Source: Anseongella ginsenosidimutans (GTDB lineage Bacteria > Bacteroidota > Bacteroidia > Sphingobacteriales > Sphingobacteriaceae). Taken from it: a stretch of DNA of 64,000 nt. Under the pieces are notes generated by a model. That model was not told where the DNA came from. It made no database searches and was given only the letters and a program-made list of their open reading frames with translations. The position numbers and the translations under genes were made by a program. Position 1 is the stretch's first letter. Each line of letters opens with the position of its first letter. The DNA lies in contig NZ_CP042432.1 of assembly GCF_008033235.1 (NCBI RefSeq), positions 4,030,001 to 4,094,000 on the forward strand, in the 5' to 3' direction. Positions 1-33,669 of this stretch are shown here, piece by piece.

Positions 1-239
1 GTATAGATTTTCCGCTCCTGGAGTACCAAGTAGCCCTCTGAAGTTACACCGCAGCCTTTGCCTATCTCAATGCTTTCGGGACCTGCTTTGATTTCGAGGC
101 CGCACACGATTCCGATGCCGATCAGGCGGTTCCTGGTCAGGCGTCCCTGTTCGTCAAGATAATTCACCACCTGGTTCAGGTGTTCGGCTGTTAATACCTG
201 GTCAGCTACGAAGACAGGATATGTGTTATACTCATTCAT
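1..239 (-). CDS. eCIS-associated large protein, N-terminal fragment (runs off left edge)
   Basis: Reading the minus strand from an ATG at 239 gives an open frame of 79 codons that is still open at the window edge. The visible start (VADQVLTAEHLNQVVNYLDEQ, then RLTRNRLIGIGIVCGLE and GCGVTSEGYL) is the kind of N-terminus I associate with a large conserved protein encoded after the baseplate genes in Bacteroidota contractile injection clusters. Its function is unknown to me. The start overlaps the stop of the preceding baseplate gene by 8 bases, so the two are almost certainly translated as one operon. The rest of the cluster, including the ATPase and any effector, probably lies beyond the left edge. 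Confidence 0.7.
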   Translation of the reverse strand, partial: MNEYNTYPVFVADQVLTAEHLNQVVNYLDEQGRLTRNRLIGIGIVCGLEIKAGPESIEIGKGCGVTSEGYLVLQERKIY

Positions 240-27451: not shown

Positions 27452-28147
27452 TCAAACATGCAGCCCGCATTCCTTACGGGAGGCGTGTTCCCACCACCAG
27501 CGGCCCGCGCGGAAATCTTCTCCTTCCAGGACGGCCCGTGTGCAGGGCTGGCAGCCGATGCTGGGGAAGCCCTTATCGTGAAGCGGGTTATAGGGAATGT
27601 TGAAGCGCCTTACGTATTCTTTTACCTCTTCCAATGTCCAGCTGAAAAGCGGATGGTATTTAACCAGTTCATGGCCGGCGTCCCATTCGGGATTTTCCAT
27701 GGTGGTCCGGTTGGCGGATTGTTCGCCGCGGATACCAGTGATCCAGCATTGCTGGCCTTTCAGGGCACGGTTGAGGGGCTCAACCTTACGGATAGCGCAG
27801 CATTCTTTGCGGTTCTCTATGGACTCATAGAAGCTGTAGGGTCCTTTTTCGGTCATTAGCTTCTCCACGTCCGCCGCCTGGGGCGAATACACCTCTATGG
27901 GTTTCTTGTACCTGTCAATGGTACGGTTCCATACATGATAGGTTTCATTGAACATGCGGCCTGTATCCAGGGTAAATACCCGGATGGGAAGATCGTTTTT
28001 AAAGATCATGTGCGTGATCACCTGGTCTTCCCAGCCGAAGCTGGTAGAGAATACTATTTTGCCCGGAAATTCTTCCGCAAAAGCGCCTAAGGCTTCCTCG
28101 GCGGAAAGGCCTTCTATCTTTTTCTTCAATCCTGATAAATCCATCAT
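27452..28147 (-). CDS. cysH: adenylyl-sulfate (APS) reductase, CysH family
   Basis: A 231-residue PAPS/APS reductase: SFGWEDQVITHM near residue 35, then two Cys pairs (ENRKECCAIRKVEPL and GCQPCTRAV) that mark the [4Fe-4S] APS reductase subgroup, and the C-terminal catalytic ECGLHV. It reduces APS to sulfite with thioredoxin. The gene is the last of the sulfite-reductase/siroheme/MetZ run, 81 bases after the fusion gene; that gap holds a palindrome and a shared motif, so it may also have its own promoter. Confidence 0.9.
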   Translation of the reverse strand: MMDLSGLKKKIEGLSAEEALGAFAEEFPGKIVFSTSFGWEDQVITHMIFKNDLPIRVFTLDTGRMFNETYHVWNRTIDRYKKPIEVYSPQAADVEKLMTEKGPYSFYESIENRKECCAIRKVEPLNRALKGQQCWITGIRGEQSANRTTMENPEWDAGHELVKYHPLFSWTLEEVKEYVRRFNIPYNPLHDKGFPSIGCQPCTRAVLEGEDFRAGRWWWEHASRKECGLHV

Positions 28148-28228: not shown

Positions 28229-30055
28229 CTATTTAACTCCCTGAGCCTGTATTGAAGACTTTTCCAGGGCGCCGGTTAAGTCGGCGATAATATCTTCCAC
28301 GTCTTCCAAGCCTACGGATATACGGATGGAGCCCTCCTCAATAGCAATAGCAACTCTTTCCTCCGGCGTTAATTTTGAATGCGTGGTGGAGGCCGGATGC
28401 GTTGCAATTGTCCGCGTATCGCCGAGGTTGGAGGTAAGCAGGGTCATTTCCAGCGAGTCTAAAAAACGCCGGGCCCGCTGGTAACCGCCTTTGATGACGA
28501 ACGTAATAATTCCGCCGCCATGCTTCATTTGCTTTTTCGCAAGCTCATATTGCGGATGCGAAGGCAGGAAGGGATAGCGTACGCTTTCTACTTCGGGGTG
28601 GGCTTCCAGGATCTCCGCGATCCTGAGGGCGCTGCTGCAATGCCGGTCCATCCGCACGCCCAGGGTTTCCAGGCTTTTGGAAACCGTCCAGGCATTGAAA
28701 GCGGACATGGCAGGGCCCGTATGCCGGATAAAGAACATCAGCTGATCGATCAGATCCTGCCGGCCTACCAGGATGCCCCCCAGCACTCGGCCCTGGCCGT
28801 CCATATATTTAGTAGCCGAATGACTTACAATATCAGCGCCGTAGTGTATGGGTTTCTGGAGGTAGGGAGTGGCAAAGCAGTTATCCACGTTCAGGATAAG
28901 GCCGTGCTTTTTTGCCAGCTTTCCTACCCATTCCAAATCTATCAGTTCCAGGCCAGGATTGGAAGGCGTCTCCAGGAAGATCATCTTCGTGTTTTCCCGG
29001 ATGGCTTTTTCCCAGTCTTCCGGACGGGAGGCATCTACGTAGGTATGGGTGATGCCCCAACGGGGGAAAAGGCGGGTAAACAGCTGGTGGGTGGAACCGA
29101 AAATGGAACGGCAGGAAACCACATGGTCGCCGGCGCTTAACAGGCCGGCAATAGAAGCAAATACCGCGGCCATTCCGGAAGCGAAAGCAAGCCCGGCTTC
29201 GGCCCCTTCCAGGGCGCGTATCTTTTCAATGAATTCGCTGGTATTCGGGTTGGAATACCGGGAATAAATATTCCCCTGCTCCTCTTCGGCAAACAGGGCG
29301 CGGCCTTGTTCCGCATTATCAAAAATAAAGCTGGAGGTAAGGTATAGCGGAACGGAATGTTCCCGGTTGTCCGACCGTTCAGCCTGGATCCGTACAAGTT
29401 TTGATTGGTCTTTCATTGCTTCTCGCTGGATATTACGGCTGCGAATATAATCTTCCTTCTTTTCATTTGCCAACACCGCCGTGATCTCATTCAGCTTTTC
29501 CACCTTATGGGCAAAATCTCCGTTAAGGCCCTTTCGGATAACTTCCAGGTTATCCAGGGATTCGTTGATATTCTCCGGAATGGACTGGTTTAAAAATTCC
29601 TTTACTCTTTTCGCCACCGTCGGCGATTTTCCATTGGTGGAAATAGCCAGCTTCAGGTTCCCCTTTTGCACGATGGAAGAAAGATAAAAATCGCAAAGGT
29701 CCGGAGTATCGGCTACATTGGCAAGGATGTTCCTGGCAGCGGCCATCTTCCTGATCTCCAGGTTCAGTTCCCTGCTGGAGGTAGCGATGATCACGAGGTC
29801 TTGTCCCTCCAGGTCAGTGGCTTCAAATCCCTTTTCAAGCAAGAGTACCCCGGAATGAGCAGCAGCAAGCGTCCTGACGCCCTCGCTTATTTCCTTTGCC
29901 ACCAGGGTAACCGCCGCGGCAGGGCTGTTTCCCAGTAATGCGGAAAGCTTTTCCAGGCCCACCTTTCCCCCGCCGACGACCAGTGTTTTAAGCTGCTCCA
30001 GCTTTAGAAAAACGGGAAATAACCGGTTACGGCCTGTACCTGCTGCTTCCGCCAT
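28229..30055 (-). CDS. fusion of siroheme synthase (precorrin-2 dehydrogenase) and O-succinylhomoserine sulfhydrylase-like PLP enzyme
   Basis: One 608-codon frame joins two enzymes. Residues about 10-200 are a CysG-N/Met8-like precorrin-2 dehydrogenase (TLVVGGGKVGLEKLSALL; ISTNGKSPTVAKRVKEFL). Residues 214-608 are a Cys/Met-metabolism PLP enzyme of the MetZ type (VPLYLTSSFIFDNAEQGRAL; PLP Lys in HSATKYMDGQGRV; SNLGDTRTIATHPASTTHS). Met-214 (ATG at 29416) looks like the native MetZ start, with MKDQSKLVRIQ typical of stand-alone enzymes. A single extra base in the purine-rich linker would end domain one at TAA 29433-29435, so the fusion could reflect the same kind of one-base loss seen elsewhere here. 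Either way both enzymes fit the sulfur-assimilation operon. Confidence 0.75.
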   Translation of the reverse strand: MAEAAGTGRNRLFPVFLKLEQLKTLVVGGGKVGLEKLSALLGNSPAAAVTLVAKEISEGVRTLAAAHSGVLLLEKGFEATDLEGQDLVIIATSSRELNLEIRKMAAARNILANVADTPDLCDFYLSSIVQKGNLKLAISTNGKSPTVAKRVKEFLNQSIPENINESLDNLEVIRKGLNGDFAHKVEKLNEITAVLANEKKEDYIRSRNIQREAMKDQSKLVRIQAERSDNREHSVPLYLTSSFIFDNAEQGRALFAEEEQGNIYSRYSNPNTSEFIEKIRALEGAEAGLAFASGMAAVFASIAGLLSAGDHVVSCRSIFGSTHQLFTRLFPRWGITHTYVDASRPEDWEKAIRENTKMIFLETPSNPGLELIDLEWVGKLAKKHGLILNVDNCFATPYLQKPIHYGADIVSHSATKYMDGQGRVLGGILVGRQDLIDQLMFFIRHTGPAMSAFNAWTVSKSLETLGVRMDRHCSSALRIAEILEAHPEVESVRYPFLPSHPQYELAKKQMKHGGGIITFVIKGGYQRARRFLDSLEMTLLTSNLGDTRTIATHPASTTHSKLTPEERVAIAIEEGSIRISVGLEDVEDIIADLTGALEKSSIQAQGVK

Positions 30056-30061
30056 GTCCTG

Positions 30062-30838
30062 TTATAAATTGTTAATATAATCGTAGAACTCCCTGATCTT
30101 GTGAAACTCGGGATGTTCCGCCACGACTTCGCCGATAACGATCACAGCTGGATTACCTACCTGCTTTTCGGCAACGACTTCCCGGATGGTTTCAATGATG
30201 CCAATCGCGGTTTTCCGGTCGGGCAAGCTTCCGTTCTGGATGACAGCTACCGGCCAGTCCTTTTTCCCGGCATTCTTATACACCTCTATGATCTCGTCCA
30301 GTTTTTTGGTTCCCATCAGGATAATAACGGTGGCATCGGACCGGGCGGCCCGGGCTATATCAGCGGAAAGTTCCCCCTTGGTATTCGTGCCTGTGATCAC
30401 CCAGAAGCTTTCGCTGACGCCCCTGCTCGTGAGGGGAATCTTTTCCAGTTCCGGCACCGCAATACTGCTGGAAATTCCCGGAATGACGGCGGTTTCAATA
30501 TTATAGGATTCGGCATGATAAATTTCTTCATACCCGCGTCCGAATACAAAGGGATCGCCGCCTTTTAAGCGTACCACGTGCCCGTAATGGAAGGCAAAAT
30601 CCACGATGAGATCGTTTATCTGCCGCTGGGAATACGCATGGTTGCCGGCACGCTTGCCCACAAACACCTTTTTGGCGCCTGCAGGGGCAAACCGCAGCAG
30701 TTCTTCACTGATCAGTGCGTCATATAGTACCACATCCGCCGTAGCCAGTGTACGTATCCCCTTTAAGGTGATCAGTTCCGGATCCCCGGGGCCTGCTCCT
30801 ACGAGGGTTAGCTTTGGATGTTTAATTGTCCCGTTCAT
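30062..30838 (-). CDS. cobA: uroporphyrinogen-III C-methyltransferase (SUMT)
   Basis: About 258 residues from the ATG at 30838, one base after the sulfite-reductase stop; an in-frame start 54 bases upstream would overlap that gene. Motifs: LVGAGPGDPELITLKGI, GKRAGNHAYSQ, VRLKGGDPFVFGRG and IPLTSRGVS. It makes precorrin-2 from uroporphyrinogen III, which the next gene product oxidises on the way to siroheme, the cofactor of the sulfite reductase encoded upstream. Confidence 0.9.
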   Translation of the reverse strand: MNGTIKHPKLTLVGAGPGDPELITLKGIRTLATADVVLYDALISEELLRFAPAGAKKVFVGKRAGNHAYSQRQINDLIVDFAFHYGHVVRLKGGDPFVFGRGYEEIYHAESYNIETAVIPGISSSIAVPELEKIPLTSRGVSESFWVITGTNTKGELSADIARAARSDATVIILMGTKKLDEIIEVYKNAGKKDWPVAVIQNGSLPDRKTAIGIIETIREVVAEKQVGNPAVIVIGEVVAEHPEFHKIREFYDYINNL

Positions 30839-30839
30839 T

Positions 30840-32957
30840 TTAGCTATTCGTTTCAGCCAGTTCGCGGTTTTGCTCCCGGAAAGCAATGGCATTCCTGAGA
30901 AAATCGGCCGCTCCTGCTATATATTCTACGGCAAAACCTTCGCCGGGTTCATTTTTATTGATCCTGGTCACATGTTCCCGGAAGCCTTCAGGGAAAGTGA
31001 ACTTTCCGGCTGCCACATACCGGCTGTCAAATTCGTTCATTATCTTGATCTGGGTGCTGGGGTTCACGCCCTCGTCCAGTAAGAGTGCTTTTGCGGTATT
31101 GATATACAAGCCATAGCCATGATAAATAGCGTCGGCGTATCTGCCGGCCTCGAAATTTTCCTTCGCCAGCTCCAGCTTTTCTTCCGAATCAGCTAAAAGC
31201 GTAGCCACCAGGTCTATCACCACGCTGGCACACTCCCCTACGCCTATGGCGGTGGCGAACTGTTCGTCCTGTCCCCAGTCGATGAATTCATCCGGCCGAA
31301 GGGTGCTTGTATCGGCCAGGGGTTTCAGCAACTCGTAGAAATATTCCTTGCTGCGACGGTCATAATAATCATTGAAGTATTCCCCATCCTGGCTATTAGC
31401 CTCGTAATCGCGAAGCACCAGCCTTAATACATCCGGCCCCCTTTTACTGGGTACCTTGATCACTTTCTCAGCGGTGCGGCCTACCCCGTCGCCAACGATG
31501 CCTCCGCCCAGTAAGACCTGGAGGGCCGGGTACACCTTACCGGCGGCCTTCGCGGAACTTCCATGGAAACCGATGCTTGCAATACCGTGCTGGCCGCAGG
31601 AATTCATACAGCCGCTGATCTTTATCTTTATGTCGTTATTGTAAATAAGTTCGGGGAATTCATTGGTTATCACCCTTTCAAATACCCTGGTCACGTTCAT
31701 GCTGTCGGAGATGCCCAGGTTACAGGTATCGGTTCCCGGACAGGTAGTCACGTCCGCCACGCTTTCAAAGCCGGGTTCGGCCAGTTCAAGCTTGTCCAGT
31801 TCGGAAAAGAGATAAGGCAATGCTTCGGGCCGCGCGAATTTCAGGATAAGACCCTGGGTGGCAGCCACCCGGATATCGTCCGCTACATAGTCGCGCACGG
31901 CGCTTACCAGCTTGCGGGCAGTGCCTGTGCTGATATCGCCCGTCTGCACTTTTATCGATACTTTATAAAAGCCCTTCTGCTTTTGCTCGCTCACATTGGT
32001 CTTTAACCAGGCCTGGTATTTTTGCTCGTTCTCTATCTTTACTTCCGGTACAGGCCTTTCCGCCGGCGGCTGGGTTTCCGGTAAAATATGCCGGTTAATA
32101 GGATAGCTCTTCGATTTATTGGCCACCCGCTCTTCTTCCACCATCCTGACCACTTCTTCCAGCCCCAGGTTAGCGATCAGGTATTTCATGCGGGCTTTAT
32201 TCCGGTTATTCCTTTCGCCGTAGCGTTCAAAAACGCGGATCACCGACTCAATATAGGGGATCACCTGGTCTTCAGGAAGGAATTCATGGACCAGCTTGGA
32301 GGTCATCGGCTGCGCTCCCAGGCCGCCGCCGATCACCACTTTGAAACCGCGCACTTCCGTGCCGTTTTCCTGGCGAAGTTTCGGGATCAGGCCCACGTCG
32401 TGAATGAAGCTCCAGGCCGTATCGGATTCCGCGGAAGAAAAAGCAACTTTGAATTTCCGGCCCATGTCCTGGCAAATGGGATTACGCAGGAAATAACGGA
32501 AAGTTTCGTATGCGTAGGGCGAAACGTCAAAAGGCTCATCGGGATCAATGCCGGCAATGGGAGAGGCGGTTACGTTCCTTACCGTATTCCCGCAGGCTTC
32601 CCGGATGGTCACCTCGTCCTTGTCCAGCTGCGCCCATAGTTCGGGTGTACGGTCCAGGCTTACAAAATGGATCTGGATATCCTGCCGGGTGGTCAGGTGA
32701 AGATTGCCGGTTGCGTATTCATCAGAGACATCGGCAATGGCAAGCAGCTTTTTAAAGGTCAGGAATCCAAAAGGTATCTTGATCCTGACCATTTGTACTC
32801 CCTTCTGCCGCTGCCCGTAAATTCCCCGGGCCAGCCGTAAGCTGCGGAATTTTGTTTCCGGAATAGCTCCTTCATGGAAGCGCCTGATCTTCTTTTCCAG
32901 CTCAATGATCTCTCGTTCTACCACAGGGTTTTCCAGTTCAGTCCTGAAACTTTGCAT
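30840..32957 (-). CDS. ferredoxin-type sulfite/nitrite reductase with C-terminal HEPN-like domain
   Basis: A 705-residue protein. Residues 1-560 are the two-repeat siroheme/[4Fe-4S] reductase with ligands in TTCPGTDTCNLGISDS and KISGCMNSCGQHG. Residues about 590-705 are an extra helical domain (LAKENFEAGRYADAIYHGYG, then LYINTAKALLLDEGV) of the HEPN type found fused to this enzyme in Bacteroidota. The operon (siroheme genes, cysH) argues for sulfite as substrate. Translation starts at 32957, 20 bases after the leader terminator, so expression depends on readthrough of it. Confidence 0.88.
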   Translation of the reverse strand: MQSFRTELENPVVEREIIELEKKIRRFHEGAIPETKFRSLRLARGIYGQRQKGVQMVRIKIPFGFLTFKKLLAIADVSDEYATGNLHLTTRQDIQIHFVSLDRTPELWAQLDKDEVTIREACGNTVRNVTASPIAGIDPDEPFDVSPYAYETFRYFLRNPICQDMGRKFKVAFSSAESDTAWSFIHDVGLIPKLRQENGTEVRGFKVVIGGGLGAQPMTSKLVHEFLPEDQVIPYIESVIRVFERYGERNNRNKARMKYLIANLGLEEVVRMVEEERVANKSKSYPINRHILPETQPPAERPVPEVKIENEQKYQAWLKTNVSEQKQKGFYKVSIKVQTGDISTGTARKLVSAVRDYVADDIRVAATQGLILKFARPEALPYLFSELDKLELAEPGFESVADVTTCPGTDTCNLGISDSMNVTRVFERVITNEFPELIYNNDIKIKISGCMNSCGQHGIASIGFHGSSAKAAGKVYPALQVLLGGGIVGDGVGRTAEKVIKVPSKRGPDVLRLVLRDYEANSQDGEYFNDYYDRRSKEYFYELLKPLADTSTLRPDEFIDWGQDEQFATAIGVGECASVVIDLVATLLADSEEKLELAKENFEAGRYADAIYHGYGLYINTAKALLLDEGVNPSTQIKIMNEFDSRYVAAGKFTFPEGFREHVTRINKNEPGEGFAVEYIAGAADFLRNAIAFREQNRELAETNS

Positions 32958-32977: not shown

Positions 32978-33015
32978 AAAAAAAAGGCCCTTTCAACTTC
33001 GGTGGAAAGGGCCTT
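32978..33015 (-). terminator. leader terminator (attenuator) before the sulfite-reductase operon
   Basis: On the minus strand AAGGCCCTTTC (33015-33005) and GAAAGGGCCTT (32994-32984) form a perfect 11-base stem around a 10-base loop, followed by eight T (32985-32978, partly inside the stem end). This is a strong intrinsic terminator placed between a short leader frame and the first operon gene, 20 bases before its ATG, the layout of an attenuator rather than of an end-of-operon signal. Confidence 0.8.
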
Positions 33016-33034
33016 GACATTTCTTGTATATGAT

Positions 33035-33124
33035 TTACGATATAGTCATTCTCTTCCGCCGCTTCACGAATTCCTTCATACAACAATTACACATCCCGAA
33101 AGTGTTAAAAGAATGGATCATCAT
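33035..33124 (-). CDS. Cys-rich leader peptide of the sulfite-reductase operon
   Basis: A 29-residue frame from ATG 33124 (second ATG at 33121) to TAA 33035-33037: it begins MMIHSFNTFG, continues MCNCCMKEF and ends KRRKRMTIS. Cys codons are numbers 12, 14 and 15, flanked by Met 11 and 16. A TAnnTTTG promoter element ends 18 bases before the ATG, and the intrinsic terminator starts 19 bases after the stop. Three Cys in 29 residues directly ahead of a cysteine-biosynthetic operon is the hallmark of ribosome-mediated attenuation. Translation and function are inference; no homologue search could be done. Confidence 0.65.
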   Translation of the reverse strand: MMIHSFNTFGMCNCCMKEFVKRRKRMTIS

Positions 33125-33142
33125 TTCTTTTTTTGTAAAGTG

Positions 33143-33176
33143 CAAATATATATATAATCTCTATGGAAGTGGTAGT
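33143..33176 (-). promoter_or_regulatory. promoter and candidate operator of the sulfite-reductase leader
   Basis: Minus-strand TATATTTG (33150-33143) fits the Bacteroidota -7 element TAnnTTTG; transcription would start near 33135, about 11 bases before the leader ATG. The -33 region (about 33172) is occupied by ACTACCACTTC (33176-33166), the 11-base motif shared with the cysH upstream region, instead of a clear TTTG. A factor bound there would overlap RNA polymerase. Confidence 0.5.
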
Positions 33177-33177
33177 G

Positions 33178-33204
33178 TTTCCGCCTATTTTTTTTCGGCG
33201 GAAA
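33178..33204. repeat. 8-base inverted repeat between Rrf2 gene and leader
   Basis: TTTCCGCC (33178-33185) and GGCGGAAA (33197-33204) enclose an 11-base loop with a run of eight T. Lying 17 bases after the Rrf2 stop, it may form a 3' hairpin of that transcript; on the minus strand no U-run follows the stem, so it is not a clear terminator. Confidence 0.4.
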
Positions 33205-33220
33205 TATTTTGTTTTGATAA

Positions 33221-33669
33221 TCAAGGGGTTAATTTCAAACTGCTGCTGAGTTCCTTTTCCCTGCTAACGATATCAGCAATGCTTGTTTCGGTAAGGATCT
33301 GCAGGGCTGCATCCCTTACGTCAATGAATACATTCCGGATACCACAGGTAACCTCGTCTTTGCATTCATCGCAGCGTTCGTAAAAATTCAGGCTCACACA
33401 GGGAAGAAGGGCTATGGGCCCGTCGGTAACGCGCAGTATTTGCACGAGCTTGACTTCCGCGGGGTCTTTAGCCATGTAATAGCCGCCCCCGCACCTTTCT
33501 TACTATGCAATACTCCCGCGTTACGGAGTTCAAGCAGGATCAGTTCAAGAAATTTTTTAGGGATTTTTTCCTCCTCTGCCAGCCTTGAGATCAATACGGG
33601 CACTCCCTTTTCACTTTTCGCCAATGCCACCAGCGCCTTTATAGCGTATTTTGTCTTTTTTGATAACAT
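33221..33669 (-). CDS. Rrf2-family regulator with Cys cluster (one-base frame break)
   Basis: Starts MLSKKTKYAIKALVALAKSE with a winged-helix N-terminus. The frame breaks at five C (33486-33490); adding one G on the coding strand restores SKKGAGGGYYMAKDP, the conserved Rrf2 wing, and runs to 33221, about 149 residues. The C-terminal half has four Cys (LPCVSLNFYERCDECKDEVT, then CGIRN), suggesting an Fe-S cluster or thiol sensor as in IscR/NsrR/CymR relatives. Position directly upstream of the sulfite-reductase leader makes it the likely regulator of sulfur assimilation here. Confidence 0.8.

Follow-up and report, generated by a model that had tools for sequence, protein, structure and literature searches.

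The window, i.e., the whole 64-kb stretch of DNA that was analysed, belongs to a genome of 4.32 Mb in one contig and carries on its minus strand an operon headed by a sulfite reductase (SiR) gene (30840..32957), the first gene of the putatively controlled set. Its product of 705 aa matches the Pfam families NIR_SIR and NIR_SIR_ferr, and its C-terminal extension matches HEPN weakly (23.1 bits against a cut-off of 22). The next genes on the same strand encode a uroporphyrinogen-III C-methyltransferase of the siroheme pathway (30062..30892; TIGR01469, 270.9 bits, above cut-off), a protein in which a CysG N-terminal domain is fused to a MetZ-like (O-succinylhomoserine sulfhydrylase-like) domain (28229..30055; Pfam and NCBIfam) and the APS/PAPS reductase CysH (27452..28147; NF002537, 270.6 bits; TIGR02055, 247.7 bits). 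The operon content proposed by an earlier, sequence-only reading of this DNA (sulfite reductase, siroheme, MetZ, cysH) was borne out by these domain matches.

Along the minus strand, the region in front of the operon consists of a split Rrf2-family gene, a palindrome-like stretch, a promoter element of the Bacteroidota -7 type, a short leader frame, a hairpin followed by T8, and the SiR ATG. The -7 element, TATATTTG at 33150..33143, corresponds to the TAnnTTTG promoter that had been read there before, and its position places the expected transcript start near 33137. The leader frame, MMIHSFNTFGMCNCCMKEFVKRRKRMTIS (33124..33035, minus strand), comprises 29 codons read from the sequence and ends with a stop codon at 33037-33035. 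The putative regulatory codons Met11 Cys12 Asn13 Cys14 Cys15 Met16 occupy 33077..33094 of the same strand, with the Cys codons at 33091-33089, 33085-33083 and 33082-33080. A TTG at 33145 was considered as an alternative start of the leader and discarded because it overlaps the -7 element.

The predicted intrinsic terminator (32978..33015, minus strand) has an 11-bp stem, a 10-nt loop and T8. Its hairpin, AAGGCCCTTTC-CACCGAAGTT-GAAAGGGCCTT, spans 33015..32984 with an 11-bp outer stem and a predicted folding energy of -18.6 kcal/mol, the eight T lie at 32985..32978, and the SiR ATG follows at 32957, 20 bases past the T-run. Sequence and fold prediction agree in this with the anatomy first described, namely a 29-codon frame with M-C-N-C-C-M, an 11-bp stem, eight T and an ATG 20 bases on.

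In a close relative (L003/L088, 91% identical), the leader is MNHSFSAFRMCDCCMMGFARRRKRRTVS and its position is unchanged; among named relatives, the closest is a MAG of Anseongella ginsenosidimutans, whose SiR is 91% identical. The leader peptide had zero matches among NCBIfam models, and within the host genome the exact leader motif occurs without mismatch in this copy alone. Another sulfur gene cluster of the host genome (L229, about C1:1730000-1738300) is of the cysQ-transporter-cysC-cysD-cysN-like type with a UDP-GlcNAc 2-epimerase-like last gene, where the gene names, CysD excepted, were assigned by eye from protein starts. In front of its cysC-cysD-cysN genes, no Cys leader with a terminator was found, and the cluster perhaps serves to supply PAPS for polysaccharide sulfation.

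Cysteine codons upstream of sulfite reductase genes in Bacteroidia

Short Cys-rich frames are not rare in the window, which contains 14 frames with three Cys in seven codons, three of them (3/14) with some hairpin and T-run behind. Taken alone, the frame in front of the SiR gene is not decisive against chance, and for this reason SiR upstream regions were gathered at the level of relatives, order and class and from a named genome collection, giving a sample of 199 distinct Bacteroidia regions.

An ATG frame with at least three Cys in seven codons was present in 58 of the 199 regions; dinucleotide shuffles lead one to expect 2.1, and the reverse-strand control gave 5. With at least four Cys in seven codons, 18 regions were observed versus 0.1 expected. 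Within the same named loci, the Cys frame was detected in 28/74 SiR regions and in 6/582 regions before other long ORFs. A scan of all 20 amino acids, performed with a separate and smaller shuffle set than the one behind the 58 vs 2.1 figure, yielded a strong excess for Cys (58 vs 1.4) and Met (30 vs 0.6) only, the excess being at most mild for Ala (15 vs 5.8), Gly (12 vs 5.2) and Thr (18 vs 8.2). Judged over the 199 regions, these sequence counts argue decisively that the Cys frame before SiR is more than a chance occurrence.

In 99 of the 199 regions, a U-tract hairpin lies behind a Cys cluster; this number probably includes some chance cases (e.g., L017, L112, L194 and L212). The remaining regions carry at least 14 family labels by our own tally (f1, f2, f10, f13, f16, f19, f21, f25, f32, f38, f41, f44, f45 and f46). 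The search among relatives that the sequence-only reading had proposed as a check on its attenuator was carried out and came out in its favour: frame, Cys codons and terminator recur before SiR in at least 14 Bacteroidia families, while the flanking peptide and the stem drift. Features absent from that reading are the candidate antiterminator, the Met codons around the Cys codons, the tandem modules and the operator-like palindrome near the promoter. The -7 element lies upstream of the Cys codons in 75 of the 99 loci.

The 92 leader peptides analysed were all different, with a median length of 24 aa. Both Cys codons are used in the clusters (TGT 146, TGC 118), so that, in peptides that all differ, it is the Cys residue and not the base that is conserved. 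Cys spacing varies (CC, CxC, CCCC, CxxC), residues besides Cys and Met drift, and, apart from the Cys codons and the stem logic, the sequence is little conserved. Met accounts for 20.7% of residues adjoining the Cys cluster versus 3.7% elsewhere in the leaders; since it is enriched on both sides of the cluster, we suggest that the leader may read Cys and Met alike. An explanation of the Met enrichment as a mark of MetZ in the operon was set aside, the leader-bearing Chitinophaga loci matching mostly the CysG-N part of the fusion protein.

Six loci (L025, L171, L183, L188, L202 and L225) carry two leader-terminator modules in series, which could work as a two-step switch, and the peptide of some tandem modules consists almost solely of Met and Cys (MMCCMMCA). 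At another locus (L130, about 74-180, plus strand), a homoserine dehydrogenase gene that lies upstream of SiR has a leader with CMCCCCCC in front of it, so Cys leaders also occur beyond the SiR start. In many genomes (e.g., L013, L014, L018, L020 and L159), the SiR gene has no leader; the putative leader control is therefore dispensable, a point that counts against it, and one of at least two regulatory solutions.

Leader RNA pairing and the proposed switch

In the window, 33061-33053 (CGGCGGAAG) may pair with 33008-33000 (UUUCCACCG) to form a candidate antiterminator (33000..33061, minus strand; predicted fold) of 8 bp with one mismatch, which would occupy the 5' arm of the terminator. Its predicted energy is -11.5 kcal/mol versus -18.6 kcal/mol for the terminator, with p = 0.14 individually, and the pairing is retained in L088. 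In the window alone, this fold is suggestive; by our own footprint estimate, a ribosome that has reached the stop codon would cover the antiterminator in part only.

The corresponding pairing was evaluated in 92 loci, each against its own shuffles. The spacer from the Cys codons to the terminator pairs with the terminator 5' arm at a mean z of -1.88 (45% of loci at p<0.05), whereas the 3' arm, which served as a built-in control, gave a mean z of -0.21 (5% at p<0.05). The corresponding KS p of about 3e-31 for the 5' arm treats the loci as independent although they are related, and pooled p-values are for this reason too small. Where the pairing was significant (41 loci), the strand of the antiterminator starts at a median of 14 nt past the last Cys codon; measured from the first Cys codon, the distance is never below 14 nt. 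In nearly all of these loci, the strand lies on or next to the leader stop codon or, within the frame, upstream of it, and a ribosome at the stop codon could reach it in 98%. The distance from the last Cys to the terminator is confined to the narrow range of 46-77 nt (5-95%).

In an alignment of 16 Sphingobacteriaceae-type loci, with helix positions picked by the analyst after viewing the sequences, 84% of cells in the antiterminator helix were paired compared with 21-47% when the helix was slid, and 14 compensatory double changes were counted versus 6.7 (2/500 shuffles). Textbook alternative pairings are present in L038, L042 and L047, with GGAGGCUGU/ACAGCCUCC against CCUCC...GGAGG. Over the locus set, antiterminator and terminator are mutually exclusive in the predicted folds, and a stall at the regulatory codons would free the former. 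Because its strand starts about 14 nt past the last Cys codon and lies near the stop codon, a stalled ribosome would leave it free and a run-on ribosome would mask or disrupt it, a predicted geometry that matches classical ribosome-mediated attenuation.

What has been observed directly is the anatomy, the fact that it recurs, the surplus of Cys and Met codons, and a surplus of 5'-arm pairing at the right distances. Three hallmarks of attenuators are among these features: a cluster of end-product codons in a short leader, an intrinsic terminator between the leader and the first gene and, over the locus set, a predicted antiterminator that excludes the terminator. On these data, it is highly likely that the SiR operon is controlled by a ribosome-mediated transcription attenuator that senses charged Cys-tRNA, probably helped by Met-tRNA. 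Since the layout is found again, made of different sequence, in at least 14 Bacteroidota families, the switch would very probably turn sulfur assimilation on when cysteine, and perhaps methionine, is short. To our knowledge, coupling between ribosome and RNA polymerase is not established in Bacteroidota, and this counts against an attenuator.

We infer for such a switch that the frame is translated, that ribosomes stall in it, that transcription terminates or reads through, and that cysteine is the signal. RNA polymerase would start near 33137 and a ribosome would enter the short frame at once. With plentiful cysteine, the ribosome would reach the stop codon at 33037-33035 and lie over the 5' strand of the antiterminator, the hairpin at 33015-32984 would form, and transcription would end before the SiR gene. 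When Cys-tRNA is scarce, the ribosome would stall at Cys12-Cys15 and leave the RNA from about 33065 onward free, so that 33061-33053 could pair with 33008-33000, the terminator would be blocked and the operon would be read.

The alternative that fares best, although we consider it improbable, is translational control in the mycobacterial style, in which the SiR start becomes accessible once a ribosome stalls on the polycysteine frame, while the hairpin is no terminator. It would account for Cys-rich uORFs placed right before sulfur genes and for near-leaderless 5' ends as in mycobacteria, the distance from TAnnTTTG to the start codon having a median of 13 nt. It does not account for the U-tract hairpin behind the frame or for the apparent selection of an antiterminator on the 5' arm of that hairpin, and the cysteine leaders of actinobacteria, mycobacterial ones included, have no intrinsic terminator (PMC1262725).

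Slightly less probable still is an action of the Cys-rich peptide itself, either as a ligand of metal, heme or an iron-sulfur cluster or as an arrest peptide that responds to sulfide or redox state, rather than as a gauge of Cys-tRNA charging. CxCC-like motifs are able to bind metal and SiR requires siroheme and Fe-S, but the Cys spacing is unconserved and the residues other than Cys and Met drift, which favours the counting of codons over an acting peptide. Very improbable is a riboswitch that binds a metabolite or a tRNA (SAM type or T-box) and in which the short frame is incidental. Elements of this kind often govern sulfur operons in other phyla, but no Rfam riboswitch or T-box model matched the leader at the gathering threshold, with sub-threshold noise only, and conservation is low beyond the Cys codons and stem logic. 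Just as poorly placed is a hairpin that merely terminates upstream transcription behind Cys codons present by chance: a same-strand Rrf2 gene does lie just upstream and 14 such frames do arise in 64 kb, yet the Cys enrichment, the -7 element lying behind the Rrf2 gene and ahead of the frame, the narrow Cys-to-terminator spacing and the antiterminator pairing already disfavour it strongly.

Relation to known leader-peptide systems

The proposed attenuator shares with the trp, his, ilv, thr and pheA-type attenuators of Proteobacteria the series of promoter, short end-product-rich frame, antiterminator, terminator and biosynthetic genes, together with a spacing that suits a stalled ribosome. Unlike these, the Bacteroidia leader would respond to Cys, possibly Met, and often begins no more than a few nt from the expected 5' end.

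The mycobacterial precedent invoked by the sequence-only reading holds for Cys-rich uORFs before sulfur genes but not for a likeness based on a terminator, since the control described by Canestrari in Mol Microbiol in 2020 is reportedly translational. The nearer mechanistic relatives are for that reason the attenuators of trp/his type and the one predicted before cysS in Rhodobacterales. Polycysteine frames in mycobacteria are leaderless (Canestrari 2020, doi 10.1111/mmi.14498, as cited in PMC13236596) and cysteine-responsive, and they resemble the Bacteroidia frames in being short, Cys-rich, near-leaderless and placed before sulfur genes; in contrast to them, a U-tract hairpin is present here, so that the terminator-free character of that group does not apply. 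The Rhodobacterales element, uORFC-8-2 upstream of cysS, combines tandem Cys codons with a U-tract terminator and is predicted to act by ribosome-mediated attenuation (PMC8632094). Compared by description only, it controls cysteinyl-tRNA synthetase in alphaproteobacteria, whereas the Bacteroidia leader precedes sulfite reductase.

For Flavobacterium psychrophilum, a member of the same phylum, leader-peptide attenuation before amino-acid operons is mentioned in unspecific terms, and neither cysteine nor sulfite reductase figures among the cases in its main text (PMC9723704). No cysteine attenuator in Bacteroidota was described in the main texts of the open-licence literature searched, and within that scope the statement of the sequence-only reading that it knew of no such example likewise stands. 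By mechanism, the system would be a leader-peptide attenuator; the amino acid, the operon, the spread through the class, the tandem use and the probable second control would be new.

It would offer a concrete, testable control mechanism for assimilatory sulfate reduction in Bacteroidia, of which we found no description in the literature searched, and a natural reporter for Cys-tRNA charging in the class. Ribosomes of Bacteroidia do not use Shine-Dalgarno sites (PMC9976891), and the leader would provide a handle on transcription-translation coupling in bacteria that initiate without such pairing. The many drifted copies, tandem ones included, form a good data set on attenuator evolution.

Palindrome and Rrf2-family gene upstream of the promoter

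An operator-like imperfect palindrome, CTACCACTTCCATAG (33161..33175, minus strand), is a weak match, with about three mismatches, to the motif CTAYWRAWTYTRTAG. This motif was derived by eye from SiR upstream regions and counted at no more than two mismatches, and it is enriched before SiR both with a leader (35 vs 3.4) and without one (33 vs 3.6). It lies immediately 5' of the -7 element in Sphingobacteriaceae and immediately 3' of it in Chitinophaga.

The Rrf2-family regulator gene of the window (33221..33669, minus strand) is split over two frames, with the Rrf2 Pfam match on the C-terminal part. It is broken at a G-rich stretch, and the copy in L088 is intact (149 aa); either a true frameshift or an assembly error may account for the break. 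Between this gene and the promoter, a second hairpin, TTTCCGCC...GGCGGAAA (33180-33205, minus strand), was noted, with no minus-strand T-run.

An Rrf2 gene adjoins the SiR locus in several genomes. Together with the palindrome enrichment, this makes an Rrf2-family regulator plausible as a second control, i.e., a repressor or activator acting on the CTA-N9-TAG-like palindrome, perhaps the adjacent Rrf2 protein. Such a protein-based layer is less certain than the attenuator. More tentatively, and with chances we put somewhat below even, the two may belong to one class-wide system, a repeatedly rebuilt Bacteroidia attenuator that counts Cys and Met codons, sometimes in series, and is joined by a palindromic operator for an Rrf2-type regulator. 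If so, its working would imply that ribosome and RNA polymerase are closely coupled in a phylum that does not initiate translation at Shine-Dalgarno sites.

In five leaderless loci (L018, L020, L021, L022 and L163), CTAATTCTATAG-like palindromes occur within the last 20 nt before the SiR ATG, which suggests a repressor site that replaces or precedes the attenuator.
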